Shown: positions 1,855-36,751 of the stretch, piece after piece
Numbering within the stretch: the stretch's first letter is position 1
Layout of the letters: every line of letters starts with the position of its first letter
Origin: Argopecten irradians
Lineage: Eukaryota > Mollusca > Bivalvia > Pectinida > Pectinidae
NCBI RefSeq assembly: GCF_041381155.1
Contig: NC_091137.1
Location: 18,149,655-18,213,654 of the forward strand
DNA length: 64,000 nucleotides
Direction: 5' to 3'
Position numbers and translations under genes: made by a program
Notes under the pieces: generated by a model
What the model was told of the DNA's origin: nothing
Databases searched by the model: none
Seen by the model: the letters and a program-made list of their open reading frames with translations, nothing else

Positions 1855-1988
1855 ATCAACTCATATGTAGTTGATGATTTTATTCAAAGTAAAGATTCAC
1901 CACACATACTTCTGGAGAATTGAAGATTGATTTAGAAGTGTTACAGTCACGCAGATGTACATAGATTTAATGTGTCATGTCCCTTCTG
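1855..1988 (+). other. STRADA: STRAD 5' UTR/start exon
   Basis: An acceptor (T-rich tract, CAG at 1852-1854) opens this exon and CTG|GTAAGT closes it. Only the last 12 nt code: ATG TCC CTT CTG, giving MSLL. The start was chosen because it is in phase with the 6508 exon and gives [15 protein letters not shown], which follows the human STRADB N-terminus pattern (MSLL-C-C-S-TQ). Because the exon begins with an acceptor, at least one earlier untranslated exon must exist upstream; I could not place it. Confidence 0.75.
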
Positions 1989-4900: not shown

Positions 4901-7900
4901 ACCCCCGGGGGGCCAGAGGGATGGGGCCAAAAGGGGTCAATTTGGCTATTTCCATATAAACGACTTCTCTGAAACTAAGCATGGGAGAGCACTCATAATG
5001 CAATGGTAGCATCCTTATAGGGTGATGATTCAAAATTGTTCAAATGATGGGGCTGACCACCGGGGCCTTAGGCGCGGGGCCTAAAAGGTTAATAAGGTTA
5101 CTATTTTTATATAAATTACTTCCTCTCTAAAACTATGTATTGGATAGCATATTCGTTTGGTATCTATAGCATCATTATATGGTTGGTATTCAAAATTAAA
5201 CAAATCATGGAGTCAATTTTGCTAAAAAAATTTTAGGAGAGGTGGGGGAGGGGTTGAGTTGCTTTATAATACTACATTACAAAGTAATTTGTCTTTCAGG
5301 CTTAAGGCTAGCTAGAAGTCTTTTATTTCTCATTACCATAATTGAACTTTATCTGGATAAACTTAAAGCCAGCATAAAAATCTAAATTGAAAACTTCACA
5401 CAATTCATTTTTGTTTTGAAAAAGTGTGATAAAATAGGTAGGGTCGGAGGTAAAAACTAGGATAGGTAGGGGTACCTGAAACATACATATTTTTTTTTTT
5501 TTTGGCCTAATATGCAAAGACGGGATATGGTCTGTAATGTAGTTTTTAAATTTGCATATATATTCATACCACCTCCCCCAACAAGATAAGAGGAGAGAAG
5601 TGTTAATGAAACCAGCTTGTCTGTCGATCTCCTCAACAACTCCTCCTTAACTACTGGTTCTACCGGTATTTCAATGAATCTTGGCAGCAATGTTGGAGAC
5701 CATATACACTTAGATGTACAAAAAGCCTTTATTTTTCAAAACATACATCTACATGTGCAGAAATCCTTTGCTTTCCGAAGCATTAATTTTAGAATTAATT
5801 TTTTCCCCTGGCCAGTTGTTGTAATATACATGTGTTGATGTATTTAATTTGACACATCACATGCTACAGTACACGGTTTCCATTGAAACAATGATGGAAC
5901 ATTTGGCTGCTACGGTATCAAGTAAGGGGTAGTGAAGGATAGTTAGCGATTGGCTTAAAAGTCTGTCTATTATATATTATTGTCTACTCTATTATTAATC
6001 ATAAACAATATCTTATTATAGAACAATACAAACATCTTAAAGGGTAACTTTAATGCCTCAGACATCTGCAGGATTTGATGATGTATTGTAAGACTTATGG
6101 TTTTGATAGAATTTTCTATGAAGTAGCTACTATGTAGCGGGATTGGACTGGGTCGATCATCGGTGACCAGGTAGCTCAGTCCGTAGAGCACTCGGCTAGT
6201 GTTCGGAGGGTCCTGGGTTCGAATCCTGGTATAGTCGCTACACTTTCTCCTCTCCTGTTACAGAATTGGCACCCAACAAAATAATCCACGGTAGTGGTGT
6301 TTGGAAGGGTCTCGTATGTCTTTGAGGCAAAGACTTCAAGATATATATATTATATATACCTATATATCTTACCAATCACCTCTGTGTAACGATGCTCAGT
6401 ATGAAAGTATTTAATGCATGAATGGCCAATTCGACAAGTGTATCAGATTGTAACAGACACTGATTTAATTGTGGTAATTAATTGATAAGTGGTGTGACAT
6501 TTTTCAGCAGCAATGCACCTGTGCCAGTTCAAAAACCCAAGAATCACCATCATCTGTTCCATACGGTCGTAAACATCCTAATTCATCTGCGGTAAGTTTC
6601 TTGTTTTTGTCACCTAAAGTCAACTTTTAAATAAATGAGTTTGACAAATTAAAACGTCAGAATGATTCCCGGGGAAGTTTGCTGCTTTAAGTTTTGTCTT
6701 TTGAGGTTGAAATGTTTGGTATTTACATCACTCTTTGCATCAAAACAAATACTGCATTGTCATACCTATGTCACAGGCATTCAGTGATATTCATCCGATA
6801 GATTTAACCAAAAAAACAAAAAAAAATTGGAATTGCTGAGAAAATGAATGGACATCAGTAGAAACGTATAATCCAACACTAAATTGATTCCTTACTATTC
6901 TTATTATTTAAAGACAGACATTTTTTCAAATGAGTCAGTTACAATAATGATTTTTGAATAAAAAAAAACCAGAGTTTATATTGATATATTTTATATGGTT
7001 TATTTGTGCTAACTGCTTGCAATGTCTAACTTGTTTATGGTAAGTAACTCATTTACCCCTGAAATTTCATAATGGACTGGTCTAGTCTTTAATTTAGAGG
7101 AGCCTAAATGTATCTTCAGGGGTGAATGTGTTTAAATGTTTTAAAAAGTAAAATAATTATGTAAAATTATTTTAAGTGAGTATTTACACCATTTAGTTAT
7201 GTAAATTAACAATGTTATGGTTTTAACAGTAAAACTCTGTTTTGAGTGAGTATATTTATTATTTATTTTTACTTGTTATGTATCTATTCTGTTGTTGTTG
7301 GTGGGAAAGAAAAGATATATTAATGTTACACAATTTTTTATATTATTTCATAGTAGCTTTTTAAAATCTGGTTATGTTTGGTTGTATATTTCAGAAAATA
7401 TTGATGAGTTTAAATAACTACTGCAAATTTATATAAGGAAATGCAGATAAAATTTTCATACTTGAGTTGTTTTTTAATTTAACCATAAAAATACTTAAAG
7501 AGTCAACAGAGAATATTTTATATAACATTCCATCATAATAACAGAAATAAGAAAGATTTTACTCAATTATTGACTTCTTCCAATATAATACATGTAGTAC
7601 CTTGTGTATTACTTCAGACTGGATCACTAGGAGATCCGTTAATTGTTATGCATGTGCCTGCCGTACATATCATTCTTTATCTTACTTAATTGTTACGTCT
7701 GTCAAATATGTTAATGGTGCAGGGTTCTGTCACATTTATGTTTAATGGGGGGGAAAATGAGAAAAGAAGTAATTTCATTATACAGTGTATTTAAATCCAA
7801 AGCCTTTTCAGGAAATATATTGCTTGATTTCTGGATCATAATAAATTTGTTATGATACTAGAAGGGTCCAACATTTCCAGAAATATGTCGGATGGTCTGT

Positions 7901-9038: not shown

Positions 9039-12000
9039 TAATCTAGTGGTCAATAGATCAGCTTACTGTACATAGTTATTTCATGTTTTATACCATCAGA
9101 ACCTTCAGTAAATAAAATACATCATTTTGAAATATTTTCAATTTCAACAAATTGTATTTCATAAAATATGAAAGGGATCAATCAACAGGCTAAGTCTATA
9201 CAGGTTCTCTCACAGAACCTGTATAGGCTTGAAATATTTTGAAAGATGCTGCTGACAAATTTGTAATTATCATATATACTGAGATGTATCGCCTTACCAT
9301 CTGTTAGACAAATTTAATTAGGGCCCCGCATCGAGATGCGGGTGCCCTATAGTAATCAGGTTGTCCGTCCGTCCGTCTGTTTGTCCGTCCGTCCGTCTGT
9401 CTGTCCGTTTTTTTTCTTTTGCACATTAATGATGGAAGGGAGTGGAGTATTTTCCCCATATTTTACATGATGATTCCCCATCCATCCTAGATCTGCTTGG
9501 TAATTTTTCAGGCTGAAATTAAATTAAAAAATCGGCCATCTTGGATTTTAACATTTAAAAAAATCACAATGTTGTTGCTCTTAACTGATAAACATTTTGT
9601 TATAACATTATGATGCAAAGTTGTTCAGAATTAAACAAGGAGTTGACTGTCCAAAGGTAAGGTCATGGGCCAAGGTTACTAAGTCAAAGGTCAAGGTCAA
9701 ATTTAAAAAAATTATTTTCTCATGAACATTTTGCTACAACATTTATAATGAAGCAGAGTTGTTCAGAATTAAACAAGAAGTCAACTCACCAAAGTTTTGA
9801 CTGACCAAAGGTAAGATCATGGGGTCACTGCATCAAAGGTTGTGGACACATTTTCCATTTTTGGACTTATTAACAATTTGTTATGACATAATAAATAAAA
9901 TTATTCATTGCTTAATATATTAATTAAAGTCAATATGATTTGAATCAAAATGGCTACATGATATGATTAGAATCAAAAAGGCTGCAAATCAGTCATCTTG
10001 GCACGTCAGACACATAGCGGGGCCCTTTCTGACGTGTCAGTGTTCTAGTTTTTTTTCTATTTCAGAGTCACTATCAGAAAGATGGAGTGAGTCCTGGAGA
10101 CCCAGGGGACAACCAAATACATTCCACAATGATGTCATCAGGAAATTTTGCACCAGATACCAAACATTATGAGTTGTACACTGTTATAGGTAAGAGGATC
10201 AAATACAAAAATGTATATAATTAACGTAGTCAACCTACAGGGTTTTTTCAGTCTGATTTGGGGCCGAATTTCGGCCCCATTCCCCATGGCAAATCCTCTT
10301 AATTTTTCCCAATTCAAGTCTTAAATTTCCCAAAATTAAAGTTTATTGAAGACTATCCAAAAACATTGCATGAACTTAGTTGGCTAGGGCTTTAAATATT
10401 TGTGAATTGGCTTCAGAAAAGTACATAAACTACACTGGAAATAAAAAGTCTGATTAGTTATGCTTTATTTCATATTTCATAATTTTTCTCAAATCTTGGT
10501 TTTGTCGCACATTTTCTCAAATTCAATGCTACTGGCCCCATTCCCAGAGTGAGAAAAAGCTCTGACCTTATTAGTGCCCTCCAATGAATAGATGAAAACT
10601 GTATAGCATATTTCCTTGAGTATAAGCCACATTCCAAATACAGGTTTAAATGCTGCAGCATTTGCACTATTTCATTCAAAGGTTAGTCCAGAGGTTCTTT
10701 TAAGAGCCCCCTCATAAAAAAAAATAAGTGCCCTGTGTGATTATTAAGTGAAATATGGTAGTTCAGTTCAGAAAGAGTAACTTTAACATACAAATATACC
10801 TTAAAGATGCTCCACCGCTGACAATTGGTATTTTTTTCACTATCAAAAACAGGAGCAGACGATTTCATATTTTTCTTCAGTTTTAAAAGTTACTTACTTT
10901 ACACCATTACCACCATTGAAAAGTTTGAGCTTCTAATTTTACTTCAAGTTGAAAATATAAAAAATAATTAATTGCATCCCGAAAAAAATCTGTGGCACTA
11001 TATCATACATGGAATGAAGTACTGATTGCGCATGCACCAAAGGCAAAATAAATTATCTTATATTATTTTTTGTGTTAATTAGACATATATATACAAGATT
11101 AAACACCAATTATTGTTCTAATGTTGAATGCCATTTTTGCTCTGTCGGCGGTGGAGCATCTTTAACTTGCTGACTAAGTCATTGTGAAGAATGGATTGAC
11201 CTTTAATCTTGATTTGTTTTGTCAAGGTCATAGATAACTGTTTCATGTTAGAAGTTATTATCAGTACTATGTTGATTTTGTGTGACAGGGCGTGGATGTA
11301 ATGATCGTGCTAGTATAATACTTACCAAACACATACCTTCAGGAAAACACATCGCCATCAAAAAGACGAATCTCGAGTCATGTGACATTGACTTCTCAGT
11401 TCTCCAGGTAATGATCGCTCTCTTATACACCTGTTTGTACCTGTAAATTTATTTACCAGGTAATGATCAGTGTCTATACCTGTAAATCTATTTCCCATTT
11501 CTTTCAATGAAGAAGTTACCATATGATAGGGTGTAGAGAGTTTGTTAAATGCTATCTTTAATTGCTGTTACTGTGGTTGAATTCATTGAAAAGTGTAATA
11601 ATTTAAAAATTGGCCCGGCAAACCACTTAGTACAATATTTTACTTAAAAATTAAAAACTCCATGTTATCTCTTACAGAATGAGGTCATATTATGCCGCCA
11701 GTTGCAACATGAGAAAGTCTTACCCATGCTCACCACATTTGTACATAACCATGAGCTCTGGACAGTGATGCCACTCATGGCATATGGTCAGTATGTACAT
11801 TGACCACTGGTCAACATTTGAGATCATTTTGAAATAAATACATGTACATTGTTCAGTAGCTTGTGTCTAAGTGTCTTACAATATTCTTTTGTCAATAATT
11901 TTGGTATTGTTAATTAATATCACACTTTCCGTATGTCAATTATCGTTGATCAACTAATCAAAAAAAAGTGTCCCATAAGTAATTTCAAATTGGGAAACAT

Positions 12001-15000
12001 TTTTTTTTCTTTTGTGAGAATATCAGTTGATACCATAATGGGCAATGGCAAATTAAATGTTGATATTATCATCTTATTTTCAATGGCAAATTAAATGTTA
12101 AATATTATTATCTTATTATCAATGGCAAATTAAATGTTAAATATTATTATCTTATTATCAATGGCAAATTAAATGTTAAATATTATTATCTTATTATCAA
12201 TGGCAAATTAAATGTTAAATATTATTATCTTATTATCAATGGCAAATTAAATGTTAAATATTATTATCTTATTATCAACAGTGTATAAGTCCATGAACTT
12301 TACATCATAATTAGAGGAGTAATATGGCTGTTGTAACTTTAAATTGTAACTAGAGGTGTTATATTGCTGCTGTAACTTTACATTATAACTAGAGGTCTTA
12401 TATTACTGCTGTAACTTTACATTGTAACTAGAGGTGTTATATTGCTGTAAGATTTACTTTGTAACTAGAGGTGTTCTATTGCTGTAACTTTACATTATAA
12501 CTAGAGGCATTAAATTGCTGTAAGTTTACATTGTAATAAGAGGTGTTATATTGCTGTAAGTTTACATTGTAATAAGAGGTGTTATATTGCTGTAAGTTTA
12601 CATTGTAACTAGAGGTGTTATATTGCTGTAAGTTTACATTGTAACTAGAGGCGTTAAATTGCTGTAAGTTTACATTGTAATAAGAGGTGTTATATTGCTG
12701 TAAGTTTACATTGTAATAAGAGGTGTTATATTGCTGTAAGTTTACATTGTAACTAGAGGTGTTATATTGCTGTAAGTTTACATTGTAACTAGAGGTGTTA
12801 TATTGCTGTAAGTTTACATTGTAACTAGAGGTGTTATATTGCTGTAACTTTACATTGTAACTAGAGGTGTTATATTGCTGTAAGTTTACATTGTAACTAG
12901 AGGTGTAATATTGCTGTAAGTTTACATTGTAACTAGAGGTGTTAAATTGCTGTAACTTTACATTGTAACTAGAGGTGTTATATTGCTGTAACTTTACATT
13001 GTAACTAGAGGTGTAATATTGCTGTAACTTTACATTGTAACTAGAGGTGTTATATTGCTGTAACTTTATATTGTAACTAGAGGTGTTATATGCTGTAACT
13101 TTACATTGTAACAAGAGGTGTTATATTGCTGTAACTTTACATTGTAACTAGAGGTGTTATATTGCTGTAACTTTACATTGTAACTAGAGGTGTAATATTG
13201 CTGTAACTTTACATTGTAACTAGAGGTGTTATATTGCTGTAACTTTATATTGTAACTAGAGGTGTTATATGCTGTAACTTTACATTGTAACAAGAGGTGT
13301 TATATTGCTGTAACTTTACATTGTAACTAGAGGTGTTATATTACTGTAATTTTACACTGCCACTAGAGGTGTTATATTGCTGTATCTTTACATTGTAACT
13401 AGAGGTGTTATATTACTGTAATTTTACATTGTAACTAGAGGTGTTATATTGCTGTAAGTTTACATTGTAACTAGAGGTGTTATATTGCTGTAACTTTACA
13501 TTGTAACAAGGGGTGTTATATTGCTGTAAGTTTACATTGTAACTAGAGATGTTATATTGCTGTAACTTTACATTGTAAAAAGAGGTGTTATATTGCTGTA
13601 ACTTTACATTGTAATAAGAGGTGTTATATTGCTGTAAGTTTACATTGTAACTAGAGGTGTTATATTGCTGTAAGTTTACATTGTAACTAGAGGTGTTATA
13701 TTGCTGTAAGTTTACATTGTAACTAGAGATGTTATATTGCTGTTACTTTACATTATAACTAGAGGTGTAATATTGCTGTAAATTTACATTGTAACTAGAG
13801 GTGTAATATTGCTGTAACTTTACATTGTAACTAGAGGTGTTATATTACTGTAATTTTACACTGCCACTAGAGATGTTATATTGTTGTAACTTTACATTAT
13901 AACTAGAGGTGTTATATTGCTGTAACATTTACATTGTAACTAGAGGTGTTATATTGCTGTAAGTTTACATTATAACTAGAGGTGTTATATTGCTGTAATT
14001 TTACATTATAACTAGAGGTGTTATATTGCTGTAAGTTTACATTGTAACTAGAAGTGTTATATTGCTGTAACTTTACATTGTAACTAGAGGTGTTATATTG
14101 CTGTATCTTTACATTGCAACTAGAGGTGTTATATTACTGTAATTTTACATTGTAACAAGGGGTGTTATATTGCTGTAATTTTACATTGTAACTAGAGGTG
14201 TTATATTACTGGAATTTTACACTGCCACTAGAGGTGTTATATTGCTGTATCTTTACACTGCCACTAGAGGTGTTATATTGTTGCTGTAACTTGGTGTTAC
14301 AGGATCTTGTAAGGACCTGATCCACGCTTACTTTACTAATGGTCTCCCGGAACAGGCATCCTCCTACATCCTCAGGGATACACTCCTCGCACTGGAATAC
14401 CTACACTCCAAAGGTATCATACACAGGTAAGTACATTTATACATCATACACAGGTAAGTATATTTATACATACAATTACGTCATACACAGGTAAATACAT
14501 TTATATATACAATGTACCTCATACACAGGTAAGTACATTTATACATACAATGAATGTCATACACATTTAAATACATTTATATATACAATGTATATCATAC
14601 ACAGGTAAGTACATTTATACATACAATGTACGTCATACACAGGTAAGTACATTTATACATACAATGTACCTCATACACAGGTAAGTACATTTATATATAC
14701 AATGTATATCATACACAGGTAAGTACATTTATATATACAATATACATCATACATATGTAATACATATACATATGTAAGTACATTTATACATACATTGTAT
14801 ATCATACACAGGTAAGTACATTTATATATACAATGTATATCATACACAGGTAAGTACATTTATGTATATAATGTACATCATACACAGGTAAGTACATTTA
14901 TATATACAATGTACATCATACATATGTAAGTACATTTATATATACAATGTACGTCATACACAGGAAAGAACATTTATATATACAATGTACATCATACACA

Positions 15001-18000
15001 GGAAAGTACAGTGTACATTTATAGATTATACACAGGTAAATACATTTATTTCATACACAGGTAGGTACCATACACACCTAAGTATCACACACAGGTAAGT
15101 ACCAGTAACCTTTATACATATATCATACACTGGTTGGTATCTTACAGGTAGGTATATATCATACACGGATAAGTACATTTATATAATATATACTGTTAAG
15201 TATATTTATATATCACACATACTGCATACAGTTAAACATGTTTATAAATAATTCACTTATAACGAATTTATGAATATAATGTAGTAATTTTTATGCCCCA
15301 TCAAAGTTCCTATAAGATGTCCTAATATGTTTACTGTAAATTTATGAACTACATGTTTATAATGAAGTGATTTTGTTGGGCTCCGGAGGTTCATTTTAGT
15401 GTAATTAAGTCTCTGTGAGGTTGAGTTGCTCTACAGTAACTAGGGTTGGATACTGGTACTGGATACTCATAGTATTGTTACTCTTTTAAGAAAATACCGG
15501 AATGTACCCGTTTTAAAAATAACTGATACTCTTATTTGTATTCGAAAAAATAACCACATCTTATTGTAAGGAAAATCCACATGTAAAAAGTGACTAAGTG
15601 AAGGAGACAGGCAGTGTATGTAAAAACATGATCTTCAAAAGTCTTGCAGATCTGTTTCATAATGAAATATAATTGTTTGCACAACAACTTGTGTATTTTC
15701 TTACATAATTACATTGTTAAAGCAAATAAAATATATATGCAGTATGTTAGACAACCAGTTTATTTCTTCAAAAAGTATCAGTATCGGTAACGTTACAGGT
15801 GTGGTACTGTACCGTTTTATTTTGAACAGTATCCAACCCTAACAGTAACACTATCTGTTAAAGGTTCTGTCCTTTTTGTTGCAGGAGTGTTAGAGCCAGC
15901 CACATATTGGTTGCCGCCTCCGGGAATGTTTGTCTGGCAGGCCTAAGAGACGCCCACAGTATGATACAGCGAGGACAGAAACTAAGAATCGTACATGACT
16001 ACCCACAACACTGTATTAACTCACTACAGTGGCTTAGTCCTGAGATCCTGGAACAGGTGTGTGTTACATCCATGTAGTTTTGTACTCTAAGACTAATTAT
16101 TTCCGCATGTGATTAAATTTTGCGTATTTCACTGGCTATAGAAATCTCAGAAATTGATTTCTGCAAAAATGTTTCAAGTTTAGGTATTGGGGAGACGTGA
16201 GACGAAAACTCAGTTCTACGATAATTCCTCCCATAGAAATCAACTGGTAGATCGAAAATTTATTTTAAATGAAATAGTCCCTTGGATATGATAATACTAA
16301 ATGAAGCTGCCACGAAAATAAAATGATTGACAAGTTGGAGTTGTAGTACTGTACAGGTATTATTAGCTCACCTGATATGCAATATCATGGTGTCCTACAT
16401 CATGGTGTCCTACCGTCTGTCTGTCCATCCATCCATCAACAATCAACTTCTACATAACTGTTGGTCAGAATTTAACAACATTTTACTGGTAGTATCCTTA
16501 TGGGATGCTTACTGAAAATTATACTACTAATGGTTAGGCAAACCCTCTGGGAGCCTGAGGGGCTAGGCGTTCCATATAAACAATCTACTCTGAAACAAAG
16601 CATTGCATATACACTCACATTGCATTGGTAGCATCATTATGGAGTGGGGATTCAAAAATTGTAAAAATGGTGAGACTGACCCCTTGGGGGCCTGAGGGAC
16701 AGGGTCAGAAGGGGTCAATCTGGTGATAAACAACTTCTTCTCTGAAACTAAGCATTGGATTTAACACTCATAATCAAAATGTATTGATTGGAGTCAAAGT
16801 TAAACAAATCATGTGATCAATTTTGCTATTCCCAATTGTTTTTGTGATAATTACTGTATAAACGAGGTGAGTGATACAGGCCCTCTAGGCCTCTTGTCAC
16901 TAGTGTTCAACATTTTACATTTGCTTATATTTATTTGTTTATCAAAACCAGTAAATATGTTTTCCTGTGTTTCTATAGAACTTGACGGGATATGACTGTC
17001 TGTCTGATGTATACAGTGTTGGTATAACGGCATGTGAACTGGCCAATGGCTACGCACCGTTTACAGATATGCCTGTTACACAAGTAAGTATGATCAGTAA
17101 GAAAACATTTGTGATTTGGGTTGTTCAGCTTGGTTTTGTGATGAATTTGACCCTGAATGGGATGTTGTCAGATCCTCTATGGAACGAAATGGGAATCAAG
17201 ATCTGTATTTATCAGATTGAGTTTGGGTTTCAGCCTGGTTTTGTGATGGGTATGCTTCAGTGAGGCAGCATGACAGTTATATATAAACATCCATACAGGA
17301 GAATTGAAAAAGTGCTCTAGACAACAAATTACCAAACAGATGTATTTGTCAGCAGCTGGTCTCTATTTGAATGAAAAAAAAAGTAACCATGGCAATGATA
17401 AGATGTGAAACATGATAAAACGAAAGTCCATTGATCTTGGATTCAGATCTAAGAGTAATCTTCAATAAAATTCAGAATGGTGAGTAAATGTTGGTGAAGC
17501 TCTGCTAAAATGCAGCTAGTAAATTGTCTTTTGTTGGATATAACCATTATATTACATAATGGACACCTAGGAGTCAGTATATGATAGTTATAACAAACTT
17601 TGAGGACAAATAACATGACTGTGTTATAAGAACAGTATGTTCTACACTTACAACAAGCACCTTATGGGTATCTTGACATGGAATGCAAAATACTAATATT
17701 ATTTATGATAAAGTATGCTTGTTATAAATGTGTTTTATTGTTATAAAATACCATTGATACTGACATCAAATATATTTGATAAATTTTGGTTTAATTTGAT
17801 TTCAGATGCTTTTAGAGAAAATTAATGGTACAAAGCCTGTCCTAGCAGATAGCACAACGATAGCAGATCTTGTCGGTAAGGAAAATATAAACACTTGTTT
17901 TATTTTGTTTATCTTGTATCCATCAATAAAATCAACCAATCAAACTGATGCAATTTTTTTCCCTCTTTGTATGATCTATAAGATCTAGGCAAGCTTCTAG

Positions 18001-19203
18001 TGGTATTGATGATATTCCAAACGTCCATCCATCTATTGTTGTTCTTCAATTAGAGGAGAATGACGTCTGATGTTGGTATTTTATCATCAAATTTACTACT
18101 TTAAATACCAGATCAAATGTTGATCTTTAAGTTAATCAACTTGGTTGATCCTTTTCATTTCTTAATCAAATCAGCTTATGATTTTAATGTTTATCAACTT
18201 ATCTGTAAACTGATATTTAACCTGGATCAATCAAATCCATTTGTTGATCTTTGACCTGTAACATGTGTTATAAATTCCAGGCCCTGAATCAGGAGTTGAT
18301 GGTGAAGCTACAAATAGTAGAGAGATCACAGACCTGGCTAATGCCAGGAAGTTTTCTCACCATTTCCATAACTTTGTGGAACTTTGTCTGGAGAAAAGTC
18401 TAGATACAAGGTATGCTTGGTGTATGGTGTGGAGAAAAGTCTAGATAATGTTACCTTTATAACAAATTTTCCCAGAACAGAGTAATACATAATAATAGTG
18501 TACTTACTTATTAACTGTTGTTATTTGGATAAAATTTAAGATTAATTTGTAAATATGTTTTCAACTAGTAAACTTATTATGTATTTTCTTCTCAGGCCAA
18601 GTTCCTCCACATTATTAGGTCATTCATTTTTCAAACATCTGAAGAAAAGGACATCTGAGATGCTACCTTCTTTACTTCAACCCTTATCACCACTCACAGA
18701 TATCAGCAAGATACCCAAAGGTACAAAATTATCTCCCCTTGTCTCATATCAGCAAGATATGAAAAGGATAATTATATCCCCTTGTCTTAAATATCAGCAA
18801 GATATGAAAAGGAAAATTATCTCCCCTTGTCTACAGATATCAGTAAGATATTCCAGGATTCATAATTATCTCCCCTTGTCTTATACATTGGCAAGATATC
18901 CAAAAGGTAAAAATTATCTCCTTTAATTTACACCTACTAATTTCACCAGGTACATATTATCTCCCCTTCTTTTATCACTCAAAAATGTACGTATATTTAT
19001 CTATCTCACTCTTCATTCACAGACATTAAGTGAATGTTCATGATTATTTCCCATCGGTGTGATCATGATGTATATAATTGTATATGGCCAAACTAACAAT
19101 ATTTTATCATCCATATCCTTCATTTATAGCACAAGAAGATGATGTAGATGAGATGACAGATGAAATCAACAACATGTCCATGGAGGAAGGTTGGGAATTC
19201 TAG
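1855..19203 (+). CDS. STRADA: STRAD pseudokinase (STE20-related kinase adaptor), complete, 12 exons
   Basis: Allosteric adaptor that with MO25 (CAB39) activates LKB1/STK11 upstream of AMPK; cytoplasmic. Exons, all with AG/GT borders and matching phases: 1855-1988 (ATG at 1977), 6508-6591, 10066-10189, 11289-11407, 11678-11786, 14303-14426, 15885-16056, 16979-17083, 17806-17875, 18281-18410, 18596-18720, 19130-19203; 1248 nt, 415 aa, close to human STRADA (431) and STRADB (418). The start MSLL, followed by CTCASSKTQ, resembles STRADB. Degenerate Gly-rich loop GRGCNDRA (74-81); VAIK-type lysine kept (IAIKK, K98). HRD is replaced by HRS (190-192) and DFG by GLR (210-212), the known STRAD pseudokinase changes. 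[15 protein letters not shown] (about 258-272) is the strongest family match. It ends in GWEF; the C-terminal WEF binds MO25. The symbol could equally be STRADB or plain STRAD: invertebrates normally have one gene. Confidence 0.95.
3343..3518. mobile_element. Palindromic MITE, family A copy 2 (degenerate)
   Basis: Starts TATTCTGTATTTGCACATTACAG-like and carries the family core (GAGCGTAACATCATAC, then AAAATGACGTGAATT). The CRE sites are mutated (TGACTTCA, TGACGTAA). The right terminus is eroded to GGGAGTTAAGTCTGG. Confidence 0.8.
3614..5240. repeat. Mollusc-type repeat: palindromic head plus about 9 tandem units of ~158 bp
   Basis: Begins with a 29-bp hairpin (AGCTCACCTGGTCC ... GGACCAAGGTGAGCT), then CCGTCCGTCC runs, then tandem units near 157-159 bp marked by AAATTGTACAAATGATGGG (near 3770, 3930, 4089, 4246 and onward), CATAATGCAATGGTAGCATC and CTTCTTCTCTGAAACTAAG. 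Units decay toward 5240. Open frames on both strands here (108-125 aa) are artefacts of the tandem structure. Confidence 0.9.
6165..6340 (+). mobile_element. tRNA-derived SINE
   Basis: Has RNA polymerase III internal promoter boxes: A box TAGCTCAGTCCG (6172-6183) and a perfect B box GGTTCGAATCC (6216-6226). A tRNA-like acceptor can form between GTGACCA and TAGTCGC with one mismatch, but the anticodon stem pairs poorly and an unrelated tail follows, ending near an AT-rich hairpin. I therefore call it a SINE head, not a functional tRNA gene. Confidence 0.75.
8306..8492. mobile_element. Palindromic MITE, family A copy 3
   Basis: ATTCTGTCTTTGCATATTAT at the left, GTAATGTGCAAATACAGAAT at the right, with the GTATGACGTTACGCTCAC core and one intact TGACGTCA near the right arm. 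Confidence 0.85.
9003..9034. repeat. (AT)n microsatellite
   Basis: A run of about 16 AT/TA dinucleotides preceded by an ACACAC tract. Confidence 0.95.
9320..10048. repeat. Interspersed repeat with GGGCCCCGCATC head
   Basis: Opens with GGGCCCCGCATCGAGATGCG, a hairpin, then GTCCGTCCGTCCGTCTG runs. Direct internal repeats occur (AAGTTGTTCAGAATTAAACA-like near 9620 and 9760). It closes with GCGGGGCCCTTTCTGACG. The organisation matches dispersed elements common in bivalve genomes (recalled, not searched). Runs almost into the polypyrimidine tract of STRAD exon 3. Confidence 0.75.
10190..11288. other. STRAD intron 3
   Basis: Non-coding. Most of the 3' half is one full-length TTAA-ended MITE (10801-11165). 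The rest is AT-rich with no recognised element. Confidence 0.8.
10801..11165. mobile_element. TTAA-ended MITE, family B copy 1, 365 bp
   Basis: Terminal inverted repeats of about 24 bp: TTAAAGATGCTCCACCGCTG at the left and the complement of it at the right (CGGTGGAGCATCTTTAA). Exactly 365 bp, the same length as the copy at 24740-25104. TTAA at both ends may be a piggyBac-type target duplication or simply part of the TIR. Confidence 0.9.
11408..11510 (+). repeat. Tandem duplication of STRAD exon 4 splice donor
   Basis: The real junction CCAG|GTAATGATC (exon end 11407) recurs 52 bp downstream as CCAGGTAATGATC (candidate donor after 11459). Surrounding text also repeats (ACCTGTAAATTTATTTACC against ACCTGTAAATCTATTTCCC). 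Use of the second donor would shift the frame. Confidence 0.85.
12044..12280. repeat. 39-bp AT-rich minisatellite, 6 units
   Basis: Near-identical units beginning ATGGCAAATTAAATGTTAAA and ending CTTATTATCA, period 39 bp, inside STRAD intron 5. The first unit is the most diverged. No coding meaning. Confidence 0.95.
12295..14290. repeat. 36-bp minisatellite, about 55 units, in STRAD intron 5
   Basis: Unit core TTGTAACTAGAGGTGTTATA followed by TTGCTGTAACTTTACA. Period 36 bp with occasional single-base deletions and short variants. The array runs to within about 12 bp of the exon 6 acceptor and may supply part of its polypyrimidine/branch region. Because 36 is a multiple of 3, the minus strand reads as an open repeat of [12 protein letters not shown] over 212 codons. 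This is not a gene: no start context, splice signals or relatives, and every frame is equally repetitive. Confidence 0.95.
14415..15170 (+). repeat. About 38-bp tandem array made of the STRAD exon 6 splice donor
   Basis: The last exon bases plus the donor (ATCATACACAG|GTAAGT) and about 22 bp of intron (ACATTTATATATACAATGTA) form the repeat unit. Including the authentic site at 14421-14432 I count 11 exact ACACAGGTAAGT strings, plus variants (CAGGTAAAT, CAGGAAAGT, CATATGTAAGT, CAGGTAGGT). The array decays near 15170. All copies are in sense orientation. Confidence 0.95.
15171..15884. other. STRAD intron 6, 3' part
   Basis: AT-rich. It includes a weak inverted repeat: AGGGTTGGATACTGGTACTG near 15433 against CAGTATCCAACCCT near 15828. 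The region between may be a MITE of about 410 bp with subterminal GATACTG/CAGTATC motifs. Confidence 0.55.
15430..15842. mobile_element. Probable MITE with AGGGTTGGATACTG termini
   Basis: Left terminus AGGGTTGGATACTGGTACTG and right terminus ending CAGTATCCAACCCT are reverse complements for at least 14 bp. The GGTACTGTACCG region near 15812 pairs further. No coding capacity. Confidence 0.7.
16360..16905. repeat. Diverged copy of the AGCTCACCTG repeat in STRAD intron 7
   Basis: Starts TTAGCTCACCTGATATGC, then CCGTCTGTCTGTCCATCC, CTTCTACATAACTGTTGGTC, and two degenerate units with CTTCTTCTCTGAAACTAAGC. It ends AACGAGGTGAGTGATACAGG. Related to the element at 3614-5240. It ends about 75 bp before exon 8. 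Confidence 0.8.
17535..17755. repeat. Possible degenerate MITE in STRAD intron 8
   Basis: Text such as GCTTGTTATAAATGTGTTTT (near 17718) resembles the end of a candidate element at 52118-52265 (GCTCGTTATAAACGTGTTTT). The left boundary and inverted partner are weak. Confidence 0.4.
18385..18450 (+). repeat. Duplication of STRAD exon 10 3' end
   Basis: GGAGAAAAGTCTAGATA occurs at the exon 10 end (about 18390-18406) and again in the intron about 41 bp on (about 18431-18447). A second GT donor is not preserved in the copy. Confidence 0.85.
18700..18975 (+). repeat. Tandem copies of STRAD exon 11 end and donor
   Basis: GATATCAGCAAGATACCCAA plus donor and AATTATCTCCCCTTGTCT recur about four times (from 18720, 18778, 18838, 18893) with drift. 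The last copy keeps a donor CCAAAAG|GTAAAA after 18906. The intron stays open in the exon's frame up to 18926, so either intron retention or the distal donor would give a changed C-terminal region. Confidence 0.9.
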
Positions 19204-28415: not shown

Positions 28416-31400
28416 TCACGTGGTTACTAGTAGTTGTTTCAGTTCGTTTTCCTTCAGGGCAATAGTCAGCATGATGCCCGATCCCAAGCAGATCCCCAAC
28501 ATAGTGAAAATAAGATGGCGTAAAGGATTCTCCGGTGGATTGCTGCTTATCTCAGGAATCTGGAAAAAATTAACAAAATATTCCAGATATAAACGTGGTT
28601 ATTTGATCAAAATACTTAAATCTAATTTATCTTAAACAAGTAAAGTGAAAAGTGTTTAGTTTCATTAATGCTTATCATGTAGTGATAAGAAGCTAGCTAG
28701 AAGATATACAGTTAGGGCCATAATACAATACGCAAGTGATTCTAAGTAATTGTACATTTTTAAAACTCCTCACCAGAAATCAATTGCAAACGTAAAGTTA
28801 ACAACGTAAAAGCTAGTTATCTAGCGATTATTTTGAAATAATGCAAATGTGTGTCCATTGCAATATGTCCGAGTTGTGAGCGATTATATCCAAACAACGT
28901 TTGATGAGATGACGTCGCAGTTTTCTTCTTTGTCTATAGTAAAATGGCGCCATAAAATTACCTGTCTAGAATTAAGATACATTCTTGACAAATGTGGCAA
29001 GGAATATATTTTGGATACACTATGCAGGATGCAAAAATAGTTCTTCGTCAGTACACAAAATCGTGTGACAACTGATTGCAAAATGACGCTAAAAAGGACG
29101 CTAAAACATGACATTATAAAACTTCATACAAAGGTTCATGCTATTTCATTATTAATAGACACGAGATTGTGTCTTTGAACATTATTATAAAGAGACTTTT
29201 GAAAAAAATTATCAATAAACAGTCACTCGTTAGGGAACTTGTTTACTCCATGACTTAAATTTAACTTTATATTTGTAACATGATGATTAGTTTTTCCCGT
29301 TTACAAACATCACATATTGTTTGTAATAATTTTCTGCTGTATAGGATAATGCCAAATTAGAGAGTCATCATTCTGTCGCTTAAATATGCAACTGTTACGT
29401 GCTATTTATAAATGTAATTCTAACGAAAATGCGCAATGAAAAGTAGTCCGAATTCGAAAGCAATATACAGCCAATTGAAATCAAGAGATTGGAGACGACC
29501 GCTGAGAGGCACAGTATGCGTTACCACACTTGTGTATATTTCGATAATCAGCTGCTATCGAGTTTATCACATTATTTATTCACAGTTATGAATATGATAT
29601 ACAATATGATGAAGAAGTAATGGTCTAGATAGATAGATATTTTTCAAGATATCGCCAATTTAATATTACATGATTTATTTGAAGCGGTGGTCTTTTAAAA
29701 GGTTTAATCTCTTTTTATGCTTGTTATTTCGAAACCTATATATAATAAAACGATATCTACTCACCATATCCACTAGAGAAATATAAATAAACATGCCAGC
29801 GACACAGACTAGAATGTACTCTTTGATTCCTGTGATGTTGCCCATAGCAACTCCCGCCAAAGCACCAATCATTGACAGAATAGACGACAAACAATTAAAT
29901 CCTAACGCCTGTTTTATGGACATCCCTTTCTTCAGCAGAACAGCAAAATCACCTACAAAAGATAATTTGTTCGTTTATATTCATTATGAATATGCATTTT
30001 GCTCTTGCTCATGGTGTTAAAGTGCATTTGGTAGCGCAATGTCCAGATGTCATTTTTTTATCATATCATTGATATTTATGGGAAACTTATAAATTCGTTA
30101 GTTTTGAAGATTACATATGTTTTACAACAGTTGGTTAGAATGAATATGATATGAAATATAATCTGAATGTTGAAAACTAAAACGGAACAAATTACTTTCT
30201 TGTAATAGAAATCATTACGCTAGCTAGCCATCACAATGTTCCTCACAAAAGGCACGTTCAAAAAGTGTTTATTTGCTTAAACGAACCCTGCATATATCAA
30301 CCTATAAAATGAGTATCGAAGAAAGCCGGATGCGAACTACAAGATTTCACAAAGACCAAGATATGTATAGATTATTAAATGCAGAGACACACACCTACCA
30401 GGAACCCACTAGTAAAGGTAGGGCATGGTGATATGTTCTTGCTGTACATAAATTAATGGTGACACAAAATATGCGAGCACACAAGGTCAGGAACTGAATA
30501 AGATGCTGTATATACTTGAGTTTCGCGGTTATAGTGGGTTCATGATGGCCGCATTGTAGATTGTTCGGTCTGCCACCCTAACGTAACCAAGGCACTGATC
30601 ACTCGAACCTAATGACATTGCCACTCGAAAACAGGATTACTATGTACAGTAGTAATATAAATAAGACAAAGGTGGAATTGCAATGACGCTCACGAGGAAA
30701 CAGAGTCTCACAATCAGAGGGCAATTTGATGCTCACTAGAAAACAAATTCTCACAATCATAGGGCAGTGACGTCCACAAGAAAACATGAATTTCGAAAAG
30801 TGAATTTATGATTTCGAGCATATTGGGATAGATAATCATTGATGGTATTTAATACAAACCAGCTGGTACCCAAAATAATCATATAAACACTGTACTACCG
30901 ATTTCGTGTGGCAGTTCGTGACACAGAACTGCTATGGACGTGCTTAGGCCAGTAGTAACGCTGACAGCGAACGCCACCCCTATTGCTAGTCCATCACTAA
31001 GGTTGTGGATACCGTCTCCAACTATGACCCGCCACAGCATGGCCCCAGTAGAGCCTGGTGGGTCGTCGTGGGAATGACCGTGTGAGTGACCGCGTTGCGC
31101 TTTTGTAGTGTCCATTTCTATAGACCTATTGGTCACCACTCTCTCCAGTATCATATTGTTCTCAGCATCTGATGAGAGAATCACATTCAATTTAGAAGCA
31201 CATCATTTAAACTTTTGCTCTCACAACAATATGTGATGATTAAAGGCGTTCAAGAGATTACAGCGTCATTAGGAGGTCAGGCTGTGTTGTATCAACTACA
31301 TGTACTAAGTATTATAATTACAAAACAACATACATTCAAAATGTTTCAAAATTAATAAACATATTGTTAATCAAATGCAATTATACAGGGAAAAAATATT

Positions 31401-34400
31401 TATTAAAACATGGATAACATAACAAGTTTGGCATATACTCCAGTGGTTTAGAAGGAGTTGTTTGGACAAATTTTGAAACCTGTGTACAGGGACATAGTTA
31501 CCATGGTAAGCAAAAATTTGATAAAAAAAACCTACATGCACATCTATACATGGTCCAAGTTTCATTGAAAGAGTAGTATAAGAGGAGTTGTCCGAACAAA
31601 ATTAACCTCTGTATAGTGACCTGGTTACCACGACAACATAAATTTCGACAAACAAAAAATCTACATGCCCATCTACACTGTGTCCTCAACAATACTGCTA
31701 AGTTTAATTGAAATCGGTCCGATAGTTTAGGAGGAGTTTTCCGGACAGGCAGACAAGCTGGTTCCAGTATAACTGACCCCCCCCAGCCCAGACAGACAAG
31801 CTGGTTCCAGTATAACTGGAACACACATTAACTTCGTTAGTGTATGAGGACACCATTAGGCCATAACTTTAACCACCGGTTGAATTGTTTTGAATCAAGA
31901 CGATAACCTTTGTGCCAGAGTCTTAGAAATTAATAATACCAATTTTCAGTGTTGACACGAGTTATAGTCACAACATGGAAGAAAATTAGAGACATTAAGA
32001 TTTAGATTTATGAGAAAGCGCTTTTGTACTAGACTCATTTACGATGCAACTGCACATTTCATTGTTATATTGACAAGTTGTTAAAAGAAACTTCTATTGT
32101 CCCACAGTCATTATATATATACTTGATTGTCCACCGTACGTGATAAGAATTTGTATTACGCCGAAGTGTAAATACATAATATGTGACATACAGACAAAAA
32201 TTGTATATTTAAACTAAACCTCAGTATGTAAACTACGTTTCAATTCGTATTTCAAACGCTTTTATGTTTCTGTCAAAACATATGAATTGTATACCTTTCT
32301 ATCTACAACTACGTGATGTCAATATATTCTACATATCCTGCCTGCCACAATTCTGTCAAATTCTATAATTACATGTCATCGTATTGTAACCCTGTCATCT
32401 CAAACAGGTAATGATTAATACTACCAACATAAAGGCGCTACAATACACCATCACCAAAATCAACCGTAAACAAACCTGGTGATCGAATCACCATCGTCAT
32501 ATTCACTGGATCGACTTCTTCAGCATCCAGCTCCTTCTGCAAAATAATATTAGACATTAGCAAACATCAACTGATGTTGTAATATACGAATATATCATAT
32601 TCGTGACGTCATTGTACAAAGTGTTTTACATGAGACCTCATATGTGTGATATAGTACGTTGACTATAAAGTTTAAAATGCATGTTAATTAGTAGATAGGC
32701 TTTCATGTGTTGCATAAATAATTGCCATACGAAAAAATGTTCTATCCAGCTTATAATCTCGATCTCCATGGGTAACGATCATATACGATCTTGAAATTGG
32801 AGCATATTTGATGGTGTTCCTGGTGATCGATGGTCCAGCGTATATGATGTGGAAATATAACAAATTTCGCTGAGTAAATTGAATGAATTCAACATACCTT
32901 TACCTTCTTATTGCTCGCAATGTTCTGAATTCTACCGAATAGGAAAAAGAAATAGAAGACAGAGAGTGCTGCCAGACCCTTGTAGACACTTGACAGATCA
33001 TGCGAGTCGGACGTACCGTGAGAATGGTCCTCAGATGAAGACAATGCCTGATCAAAAGATGGAAATCAGATGTCGATCAAATACATAGGTGGTAGGGGTA
33101 CTTTATACCCATGTTAGTCTTGTTGAATGTGCATGCATACACCCCATCGTCCCCCAACCACGACATACATATTCGGTCATTGTATATTACAGTTACCTAT
33201 TTTGCGTGTAGATATTCATTATGATGTCAGTATTATTTTGAGTGAAATTCACATCGTTTTCTCTGAAAAGTATGATGTTGTGCTCTCAAACAAATAGCGT
33301 CACAAACAATACCCATCCATAAGGGCAGACAACTATGTAACGTGCAAATTCAGAATATGTAGAAGATAGACTGGATAAAATGTACAGGCCGAAGCCCTAA
33401 ACCGAGACACATGACCAACAGAGAGATATGAAGTCATATAAATTATTGGCATAATTATGTTGTAAACAAGCTTTTCATTGCAGTCAGATTGACACTGGAA
33501 CAACTGCTACTGAGACGGACATTTTAAACTTGTTTTCGTTAAAACAGCACATACTACTAAGAGTGTATTTAAACGTAAGACTGTTCTAAAAAGAGAAATG
33601 CCTCCAGGACAAGACTATACAAAAAATGTTTCACTGTAAATACGAAAACACAGTAATGTTATTCTAAATCTTTTTGTGCTACTAACATATCACAATCCAA
33701 AAATATATGTATATCATCTCATCTCTGTCGGAATTCACTAAATTTTAATTAATATGTTTGTATCATATAAACATGCGCATGTAAGAAATCATTTTCTTTT
33801 TTCTTTGTTATCAGGAAAATTCCATACTATGAATAAACATTGTATTGGGATAATGTTTCTTGTGTCTGACAAAACCTACCTTTTTTCGAGGCGAAGTTAT
33901 ACAATACCCAACCAAAAAATGATAAATACAAAATTCATTTTAAGACACAACTAGAATACCTGGCTTTATCCTAAGTGTTAAATTTCAAACACTGTCATTG
34001 TTCCGCTAAGTATTGTCTCATATTATTGCTAGCAGAGATTATCAGTCTGACAATAAAAAAAACACTTATCATGATCATAAAATAGATAGATAAAAGTTCA
34101 TAGTAATATGACACTAGTATCACGTTCATATCAACTTCTGAGATCTAATGTTGTAAAAAAAATATGTAATTTCATTTAAATTAACATACGTGTGGTAGCA
34201 GATGCAGCATGGCGTCCCCAGTTAATGCTCCTACTGCCATTGCTACCAAAAAATGTAGGAAGTTCTCAACAAACATATGATGCAGCAAAGACAGGATTCC
34301 AACACAGAACAGACCAGCCACGCTGATTACTACAATGGCTCCACAGGCATACAGCCACGCTGGGAGAGAAATCAGAATATAAAATAAAAGTAATAATATA

Positions 34401-36736
34401 CATCAAAAGACAGGAATAACATATGATAAACCAACCTATTTCCGACTTCATGTTGGATTTTCATGTCTATATAACTACACAATAACACTCTTTCTCTATT
34501 CTTTCAGGACGACTTTATTTCGGGTTTGATATCTAAGTACACATCTGTACTTTTGTCACGACTTAATTCCGTGTAAATCTCACGACAATCAAGTTTCGTG
34601 ATGTAGTCGACGGTACCTATATTTGAAACACTTTTGTGATGTAGCCTTTAAAGATTTCACGGTACCTGTGTTTGAAACACTTTCGTGATGTAACCTTAAA
34701 AGATTTCACGGTACCCGATGTTAACTTTTATCAATCACACTAGAATAAGAATGGGATTAAGTGCTTTAAACAAACATAGACATTCTTACAACTTAACCAA
34801 TAACAAATTCTGTGACCTTTGCGTGAACTCCTCCGAAGATGAAATTCATTTCTTTTTACATTGTCAAATATATAACAGAATCCGTTCCAATATGTTCCGC
34901 ACTGTTTGTCATATATTCGCTCCAAATGTCAATTCTAACCTCATTGTAGAGCTCATGCCAAATGTTCTTGTCAAAATAATTTCATCTGGCTTAGAAACTC
35001 TAGTATGTATGTGTGAGTGTGAGCGTGTGTGACATTTGTATGTCTTTTGTGTAATTGTACATATTGTTTGTTTGATATATATTGAGGAGAGCATCTAGTA
35101 GCCTTCGGGCTGTTTGTTATCCTCGTGAAATAAATAAAGAATTAAATTAAATAACTTTTAAATATTCCACGGTAACTGTGTTTGTTTGTTTTTCGTGATT
35201 TCGCATCATGCGTGGAATGCACAGAATTTAAATGTCCAGATATTTACGACTTACCATCCCCACCTCCCAACTTTCTTACTCACTTTCGGATTTTACAGAT
35301 GACTTTTCTCTGCGTTCCCGTATGTCAGAGTGTGTAGGAGAGCGGTACAACATATCATCGCAATGGTGTTGGTCTAACTGCACTATGAGTAACGGACACA
35401 ACTCTTTAAACTGTGTCTTCGTCAGGCCTTGGTCAGTAAAACGTAGAAGTCGCAGCAAGTCCATTGGTTTCAAACACTATGTTAAAAGCATGAATATGTA
35501 CGACTTATGCATGAGGATCAAACACCGTGAAATTTTCTTATTGTTTTTTTTTTTTTTTTTTTTTTCATTTTTTTCTTCTTCTTTTTAAGCAAGCATGGAT
35601 TGTCATTTTACAATTATGTACGAGGATAAAACACCGTGAATTGTTTTTCTTTTCAATTTTTTAAATATTGATTGTTAAAGTTAACACTTTTCGAAATTTT
35701 AGTATGAAAATGAATAGCCTTAATTCAGTCAAATCTATATTGAAACTTGTTGAAAACACAATTTCGGTACGGACCTGTAACCAGATCTTGTCAATAATTC
35801 GTGTAGAAGTCGGCAGTCGTGGCTATGCTTGTCTGTCTTGAGCATTTCTGACACAAGTATTAATTACTTTAGCTTGGTTAACTATTTTACCTTGTAACTG
35901 CAGTTAAAATGTACTGGAACAATACTGACCTTGCTGAGTAGTTCGTCCGGTACAGATCGGGCCCGTTCGTGACCTGCATTTCTTTTTACGAGGTGGTCAT
36001 GTGCATAGTCATATTCTTTCGAGACATGCTCAGTTGTGTGTTTATTATTGGAAATATTCCTTGTAGAGTCATTTTCTACAGAATGTTTATGATTGTTATT
36101 ATTATCGACTGTCTTTTCTTGTTTGAAATGATGTTTATGTTCGTGATCGTGAATGTGATAATATTCATTTGTTAGTTTGTCCCCAGCAACTTGATCGTGT
36201 GTTTCACCATGCTCGTCGTTGGTCACGTGATCGTGTGTATTATCGTGATCATGTTCGTGTTTGTGTTGATTATCCTCATTTGTTGAATGATCATGGTCCC
36301 CGTCATGTTTGTGATCGGTACCGTCGTTATGTCCATGGAATTTTCGCCTATGCACATGAACATGACTGTGGCTATGTTCGCCAGGATGTGAATGCTCGTG
36401 TCCAGTATGATCATCAATTCTTAAGGGATGATCGTGATCGTCGTGAAACTGCACAAATTTTTCCGACGAGTTAGAAAGATGGATTTCAACACTGTGGTCT
36501 AACTGTATGACACCGAGCCTCAAGCTTTCCAAGAGATGTTCATATCCTTCAAATGGCATGATATAATCTGAGGAATATTTTTCAAAGATGTAGTCGAGCA
36601 CATTGTCAGCTGTCGTTGTACTCACAGAATCTAAAGTTGTTAATTCGGGTGTATCTGGTTTTGGTGAAGATGCTGCACTAACTTTTGATGAAATAAACAG
36701 CAGACTAGATAAAACTGTCACAATACGATGAGCCAT
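28416..36736 (-). CDS. SLC39A10: LIV-1 subfamily ZIP zinc transporter (SLC39A5/6/10-like), 8 coding exons, 660 aa
   Basis: Membrane importer moving Zn2+ into the cytosol. Coding exons (minus): 36736-35930, 35476-35284, 34359-34190, 33047-32898, 32536-32476, 31168-30899, 29952-29765, 28559-28416; all phases agree, 1983 nt. Residues 1-21 are a signal peptide; 97-250 are a His/Asp-rich ectodomain; ELCPLLIVQLDQHHC (294-308) corresponds to the LIV-1 CPALLYQ...C motif. TM1 is about 335-357, and TM2 ends in GDAMLHLLPH (381-390). A His-rich cytosolic loop GHSHGHSHDD (487-496) follows TM3. TM4 carries DGIHNLSDGLAIG (512-524) and TM5 CHELPHEIGD (543-552), the zinc-binding HEXPHEXGD signature. The LPHE form favours ZIP10/ZIP6/ZIP5 over ZIP8/14; the exact orthologue is uncertain, so the symbol is tentative. 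Confidence 0.93.
29953..30898. other. ZIP intron between exons 7 and 8
   Basis: AT-rich, 946 bp. No recognised element or coding sequence. Confidence 0.6.
31400..31850. repeat. Interspersed repeat in ZIP intron 6
   Basis: Recurring phrases CCTGTGTACAGGGACATAGTTACC / CCTCTGTATAGTGACCTGGTTACC, CTACATGCACATCTA and AGGAGGAGTTTTCCGGACA give a two-unit arrangement. ACAAGCTGGTTCCAGTATAA is duplicated at 31754 and 31797. The style matches a widespread mollusc repeat (recalled). The 108-codon frame inside is an artefact. Confidence 0.6.
31851..32475. other. Rest of ZIP intron 6
   Basis: No coding sequence, repeat or RNA gene recognised. Confidence 0.5.
33172..33356. mobile_element. Palindromic MITE, family A copy 5
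   Basis: TATTCGGTCATTGTATATTACAG-like left end, GTAACGTGCAAATTCAGAAT right end, with CGTTTTCTCTGAAAAGTATG in the core. CRE sites are decayed (GATGTCAG, AGCGTCAC). Lies in ZIP intron 4. Confidence 0.8.
33357..34189. other. ZIP intron 4, remainder
   Basis: AT-rich; I see no gene or further repeat. Confidence 0.5.
34610..34721. repeat. About 58-bp tandem duplication, split by a LINE
   Basis: GTGATGTAGCCTTTAAAGAT plus TTCACGGTACCTGTGTTTGAAACAC-like text occurs twice. A third diverged piece (TTCCACGGTAACTGTGTTTG) resumes at 35165 beyond the LINE insertion. Confidence 0.75.
34722..35160 (+). mobile_element. 5'-truncated LINE (3' end) with 9-bp target duplication
   Basis: Body 34731-35151, flanked by the same 9 bp TAACTTTTA (34722-34730 and 35152-35160). 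It encodes the C-terminal part of a LINE ORF2, with RIRMGLSALNKHR and a zinc-knuckle-like FCDLC...HFFLHC motif (34744-34860). The tail is AATAAATAAAGAATTAAATT. Inserted in ZIP intron 3, antisense to the gene. Confidence 0.85.
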
Positions 36737-36751
36737 TTTGATCACTCGTAC
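36737..36751 (-). other. 5' UTR part of the ZIP start exon
   Basis: On the minus strand GTGTTTCAG precedes the exon at 36751, which carries 15 untranslated nt before ATG (36736). The ATG opens a textbook signal peptide (MAHRIVTVLSSLLFISSKVS). An upstream in-frame ATG at 36766 lies in the intron and is rejected. Confidence 0.7.

Follow-up and report, generated by a model that had tools for sequence, protein, structure and literature searches.

How does a transcript keep to its proper exon end when the 5' splice site is followed by a series of copies of itself? This question is posed by the gene for the STE20-related kinase adapter protein STRAD in a 64,000-nt stretch of the scallop Argopecten irradians (contig NC_091137.1, positions 18,149,655 to 18,213,654 of the forward strand), hereafter the window, in whose coordinates all positions are given. 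A first-pass annotation had placed a sense-oriented array of about 38-bp units behind STRAD exon 6, in which the exon end and donor ACACAG/GTAAGT occurs 11 times, once as the authentic site. We interpret the array as a mirage-type minisatellite derived from the exon 6/intron boundary, whose decoy donors are tolerated and not selected, and give this interpretation a probability of about 0.8.

The original description of mirages, a known but seldom reported type of repeat, is reportedly that of Canestro et al. 2002. In amphioxus, the name denotes tandem repeats spanning exon-intron boundaries, as in Adh3, BflGb6 and BflGb9, with reported units of 10-72, 150-160 and 157 bp; reverse transcription PCR suggested that regular splicing is undisturbed, and array length varies between haplotypes (PMC3087553). 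As to donor choice in general, alternative donors can both be in an occupied state although one of the two is used (PMC5861446).

A minisatellite that repeats the end of STRAD exon 6

An exact search for ACACAGGTAAGT returned 11 matches in the window, all on the plus strand, as the first-pass annotation had counted: the authentic one at 14421 and ten others at 14448, 14523, 14599, 14637, 14675, 14713, 14806, 14844, 14882 and 15089. When up to two mismatches were allowed, 31 matches were found; 100 shuffles averaged 6.57 (maximum 15; 0/100 reached 31). The plus strand carries the string CAGGTAAGT 13 times, including 11 copies within the array; the minus strand carries it once. Tandem Repeats Finder (TRF) assigned the array a period of 38, and an anchor scan resolved 23 unit-like repeats on the sense strand, mostly of 38 bp (Table 1). 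The annotated array is confirmed; it extends slightly beyond the end given for it, 15170, to about 15224. In the anchor scan, the second anchor follows the first after only 27 nt; core units are 37-38 nt long, apart from a single unit of 55 nt, and those at the distal end are degenerate.

The nine leading bases of the regular unit are the last nine of exon 6, and in some units the match extends two to three bases leftward, giving a coding-exon content of 11-12 nt. At +178, a copy of the junction is identical at 24/24 positions across the exon 6/intron boundary. CAG/GTAAGT is kept in 10 of the 22 non-authentic units; each of these intact decoys agrees with the U1-complementary string at 10/11 or 11/11 positions. 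For the unit at 15061, which carries GTAGGT, the computed U1 duplex energy is comparable (-13.2 vs -13.5 kcal/mol). Divergence from the consensus increases with distance from exon 6 (rho=0.67, P=0.0005), and intact decoys are concentrated nearer the exon (P=0.016).

The array thus shares with the mirages a unit that lies across an exon-intron boundary (here CATACACAG of the exon plus GTAAGT), a unit of minisatellite size and an AG/GT that persists in many but not all copies. Among the options offered by the annotation, this favors a minisatellite that grew from a donor, as the unit contains both the exon end and the donor.

Table 1. Coordinates of the STRAD features and associated repeats in the window
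Feature	Position	Strand	Evidence or remark
STRAD first exon, ATGTCCCTTCTG/GTAAGT	1977-1988	+	agrees with the MSLL start of P0001
Donor CCAG/GTAATGATC (11404-11416), repeated at 11456-11468 with a similar tail	11404..11492	+	alignment; 4 exonic bases only
36-bp minisatellite, 54.9 copies	12296..14280	+	TRF; ends 22 nt before exon 6
STRAD coding exon 6, 124 nt, ends CAC AG, phase 2	14303..14426	+	in-frame joining, P0001 match
Array of 23 unit-like repeats (probable mirage minisatellite), consensus CATACACAGGTAAGTACATTTATATATACAATGTACAT	14418..15224	+	TRF, anchor scan; mostly intact to ~14916, then degenerate
Authentic donor GTAAGT (read from P0001)	14427..14432	+	CAGGTAAGTAC, 10/11 positions of the U1-complementary string
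First decoy donor, 27 nt downstream of the authentic one	14454..14459	+	CAGGTAAGTAT, 11/11 U1-complementary positions
Nine further intact CAG/GTAAGT decoys	14529..15100	+	donors 14529, 14605, 14643, 14681, 14719, 14812, 14850, 14888, 15095
Example of 7-bp hairpin GTACATT...AATGTAC overlapping donor +5/+6	14609..14631	+	predicted fold
STRAD exon 7	15885..16056	+	acceptor outside the array
21-nt exon-end segment 18386-18406, copied at 18427-18447	18386..18447	+	20/21 identical; copy without donor
Second mirage-like array: end of exon 18596-18720 plus junction	18699..18921	+	TRF, 4.8 copies of 45 bp

Identity of the gene and of the authentic donor

Eleven exons on the plus strand join in frame into a 411-aa protein, whose best database match is P0001, the A. 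irradians STE20-related kinase adapter protein alpha-like isoform X2, with identity and coverage of 100% (as the tool rounds). The first residue is an exception, since alternative use of a tandem CAGCAG acceptor can add or drop one Q. This NAGNAG-type acceptor lies at exon 2 (6505-6511), and its downstream AG, with one Q fewer, fits P0001. For the exon 6-7 piece, three solved STRAD alpha entries rank highest; a 47-aa protein query returned no homologue, and the full-length protein query succeeded. The annotated STRAD identity is supported by these matches, and the exon number fits as well, since a first exon at 1977-1988 coding for MSLL makes 14303-14426 the sixth coding exon. The junction made from the first site is present in P0001, and on the strength of this database protein the authentic donor is probably the one at 14427.

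Consequences of decoy use

Eleven alternative donors were translated, namely the ten intact decoys and the imperfect one at 14491. All of them stop directly after KGIIHR, the outcome that had been predicted from the phase 2 exon end, and they would lengthen the exon from 124 nt to 151-792 nt. A search for the 190-aa truncated product (E <=1e-30) matched 1 of 29 candidates, a Pinctada protein of 333 aa. The evidence is weak, as transcripts subject to nonsense-mediated decay (NMD) would be degraded and their products are rarely recorded.

The neutral test was confined to the 13 of 23 units that lie in exact 38-nt register, and the other 10 were dropped. Changes were found in 11/195 cells of the exon-plus-donor columns and in 19/299 cells of the remaining columns (P=0.85); for the nine donor columns alone, the counts were 10/117 vs 20/377 elsewhere (P=0.27). 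Neither preservation nor removal of the decoys was detected in these 13 units, in a test that is low in power because the units share history. The proposal that the decoys are under selection is therefore not borne out: changes are as frequent in donor columns as in spacer columns.

Other donors of the gene

Ten STRAD donors entered the donor tests, the exon 1 donor (1988) being left out. Besides the focal donor, three of these 10 have exon-end or junction copies shortly downstream (Table 1). In the array at 18720, whose donor has 6/11 U1 matches, the junction GT is lost in three of four intronic copies, and the last copy retains GTAAAA. The copy of the donor at 11407 lies at a spacing of +52 with 17/24 identity.

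In a first-copy test, the last 30 exon bases had to be copied downstream and not upstream, with thresholds set after the data had been seen. Such duplications were found at 3/10 STRAD donors vs 3.1% of 12,000 random positions (P=0.003; post hoc). The test was widened to n=17 with seven donor strings of a minus-strand, His-rich gene at 28416-36751 that resembles a ZIP/SLC39 zinc transporter, presumably so judging by its motifs HNLSDG and HELPHE. At thresholds of 24, 28 and 30, it gave P=0.014, 0.048 and 0.037, assuming zero hits for the seven strings, which were scored by a different measure and two of which are alternatives for one exon. If the first-copy condition is dropped, downstream copies are present at 11.6-13.4% of random positions. 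None of the 11 STRAD acceptors has an upstream copy above background. Ungapped junction scoring without drop-off was inflated near arrays and was discarded in favor of the other copy tests.

Surrounding sequence

Exon 6 is flanked by arrays on both sides. A 39-bp array (6.1 copies) and the 36-bp array of Table 1 together (12043-14280) make up 88% of the intron before it. We do not claim that the 36-bp array grew from the exon 6 acceptor, as the score for its extension through the acceptor is no better than that of 9% of random positions. Pairing of the two arrays across the exon was rejected: the complementarity amounts to the 9-nt TACATTGTA (39 places) with no 10-mer, and its duplex energy was reached by 14.8% of 500 shuffles. 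U1 telescripting was likewise set aside, as AATAAA and ATTAAA are absent from the plus strand between 12509 and 15725, leaving little in the vicinity for the array to suppress.

The intron after exon 6 also holds a stretch of about 400 bp (15442-15840) with 14-bp inverted ends, AGGGTTGGATACTG and CAGTATCCAACCCT, that resembles a miniature inverted-repeat transposable element. A tRNA-like stretch at 6165-6235 contains GGTTCGAATCC, which we take to be a tRNA-type motif, and is possibly a tRNA-derived short interspersed element. Further away, a plus-strand fragment at 37619-37993 carries GIPQGSVLGPLLF and FADD and is reverse-transcriptase-like, assuming that we assign the motif correctly. A 39-bp minisatellite at 54593-55733 (29.3 copies, 97% matches) has long open frames on both strands.

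Discussion

The anatomy of the array suggests how it may have arisen. A tandem duplication across the exon 6/intron junction would have placed a copy of the donor, together with 11-12 coding bases, in the intron, after which the unit could have been amplified by slippage or unequal exchange. An existing intron would in this way have been lengthened from its own boundary. Gain or loss of whole units would spare the exon end and the donor; the authentic unit is first by position alone, so copy number may drift without altering the message. In favor of this interpretation are also the first-copy enrichment among the STRAD donors and the abundance of TRF repeats, which are reported to account for 15.10% of the A. 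i. irradians genome (PMC7090048). The array is most likely neutral and tolerated.

Three circumstances would probably explain why the decoys are ignored. The authentic site emerges first during transcription, and its match to U1 is near-perfect. Exon definition favors short exons, and the first site yields the shortest one. Misuse of a decoy would lead to an immediate stop, and the resulting transcript could be removed by NMD.

Several points weigh against this interpretation. The annotation had relied on an exon-proximal rule for competing identical donors. The published preference runs the other way: when two 5' splice sites are comparable, it is the intron-proximal one that is favored, for reasons given as not known (PMC6002489). 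This preference predicts decoy use and would make use of the first of eleven donors puzzling. Use of 14427 is read indirectly, from a protein record, and the neutral test has the low power described above, with units of shared history. The first-copy enrichment test is post hoc and small: thresholds of 28 and 30 lose the focal donor, leaving two donors (P=0.017 and 0.013). Junction 24-mer copies (>=19/24, within 1.5 kb) were found at 2/10 donors vs 16.1% of 3000 random positions, and no downstream copies were found for the seven ZIP-gene donor strings checked. As there is no clear excess without the first-copy condition, much of the effect reflects a repeat-rich genome.

Among the alternatives, structural masking is unlikely as the explanation, and it is compatible with a tolerated minisatellite. 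A hairpin would cover donor positions +5/+6 in the regular units and leave the authentic site, in its shortened unit, more open. All 7 pairs are predicted in 8/13 regular units and the first, 27-nt unit lacks the 3' arm, although a different hairpin is predicted at the first decoy. The stability of the tandem unit exceeds that of 99% of 300 shuffles, yet a 7-bp arm is found in 10.8% of 1000 shuffled units, and covariation does not go beyond shuffles (the level is attained in 287/500, and a shift of the partners by +2 raises the score from 0.082 to 0.106). The opening energy of the authentic site is lower than that of 10/10, 9/10 and 8/10 intact decoys at flanks of 150, 80 and 40 nt, respectively. 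The margins are nevertheless small (0.04-1.96 kcal/mol at flank 150), with one to two decoys more open at flanks 80 and 40, and the authentic 2.9 kcal/mol at flank 80 is ordinary among 66 GTAAG sites elsewhere in the window (quartile 2.79, median 4.15).

It is quite improbable that the decoys serve regulated unproductive splicing, in which they would divert some transcripts into an NMD-bound isoform and array length would set the dose of STRAD. The immediate stop after each of the 11 alternative donors and the U1 complementarity of the ten intact decoys are what such a device would use; the donor columns, however, lack excess conservation, and the single Pinctada match to the truncated product argues weakly in the same direction.

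We consider it very improbable that the AG/GT copies are dual-specific or recursive sites, acting as acceptor and then as donor with the mRNA unchanged. Every intact unit does read AG/GT, and UBC uses tandem AG/GT sites in register with a repeat as a dual-specific splice-site array (PMC10809524). In UBC, as described there, the repeat consists of coding units and contains both ends of the intron, whose length is a multiple of the unit, whereas in the scallop the units are intronic and the acceptor, at 15885, lies outside. Scored as acceptors, 4/12 array sites reach 4.0-5.2 and exceed the 90th percentile (2.28) of 3194 AGs in the window, one of them also the 95th (4.50), but 5/12 score below zero and the pyrimidine fraction is 0.51 vs 0.68 for the 11 acceptors of the gene. 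These scores overlap those of weak real acceptors and are not decisive on dual-specific use.

An assembly artefact, with a spurious array or a wrong copy number, is the least credible explanation: an amphioxus mirage was aberrantly assembled in a draft genome (PMC3087553), but the scallop units differ mutually, with insertions and a decay gradient, unlike the copying of one unit, an argument that bears on the array and not on its copy number.

Compared with other boundary repeats, the tolerated minisatellite at exon 6 stands closest to the amphioxus mirages, in which, as far as they are described, many but not all copies keep AG/GT and edge units likewise differ from a homogenized core (PMC3087553). 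It differs from them in occurring in a mollusc, in placing ten intact near-perfect decoys at a 5' splice site and in having counterparts at several donors of one gene. AGGT tandem duplications can create introns, and also involve tandem duplication with splice signals, there across the intron-exon boundary (PMC4974935). In that case both splice sites come from copies of one segment, whereas the scallop shows no new intron and its acceptor lies outside the array. In human genes, internal tandem repeats at exon-intron boundaries, minisatellites that affect gene structure, can likewise create introns, but those reported belong to segmental duplications, in primate paralogues of recent origin that have novel introns (PMC2812944). 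A literature search that did not use the word 'mirage' returned no mirages in molluscs, and it does not establish novelty for this phylum.

Arrays at their own donors may recur in scallop genes. A stronger version, that these genes repeatedly grow minisatellites from their own 5' splice sites and that the survival of decoys is set by the strength of the authentic donor, is speculative and unlikely. Its basis is two arrays in one gene: the strong donor at 14427 (10/11 U1) is followed by intact decoys, and near copies at the weak donor at 18720 (6/11) lack the GT. If true, it would provide a natural library of multi-donor introns in which to learn how the first of several identical sites wins against the intron-proximal preference. 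On the literature found, the boundary-repeat class of cephalochordates is extended to a mollusc. The eleven identical near-perfect donors form a natural substrate on which exon definition, transcription order and intron-proximal preference make opposite predictions, and the array points to a way in which introns may grow out of their own boundary with the message unchanged.
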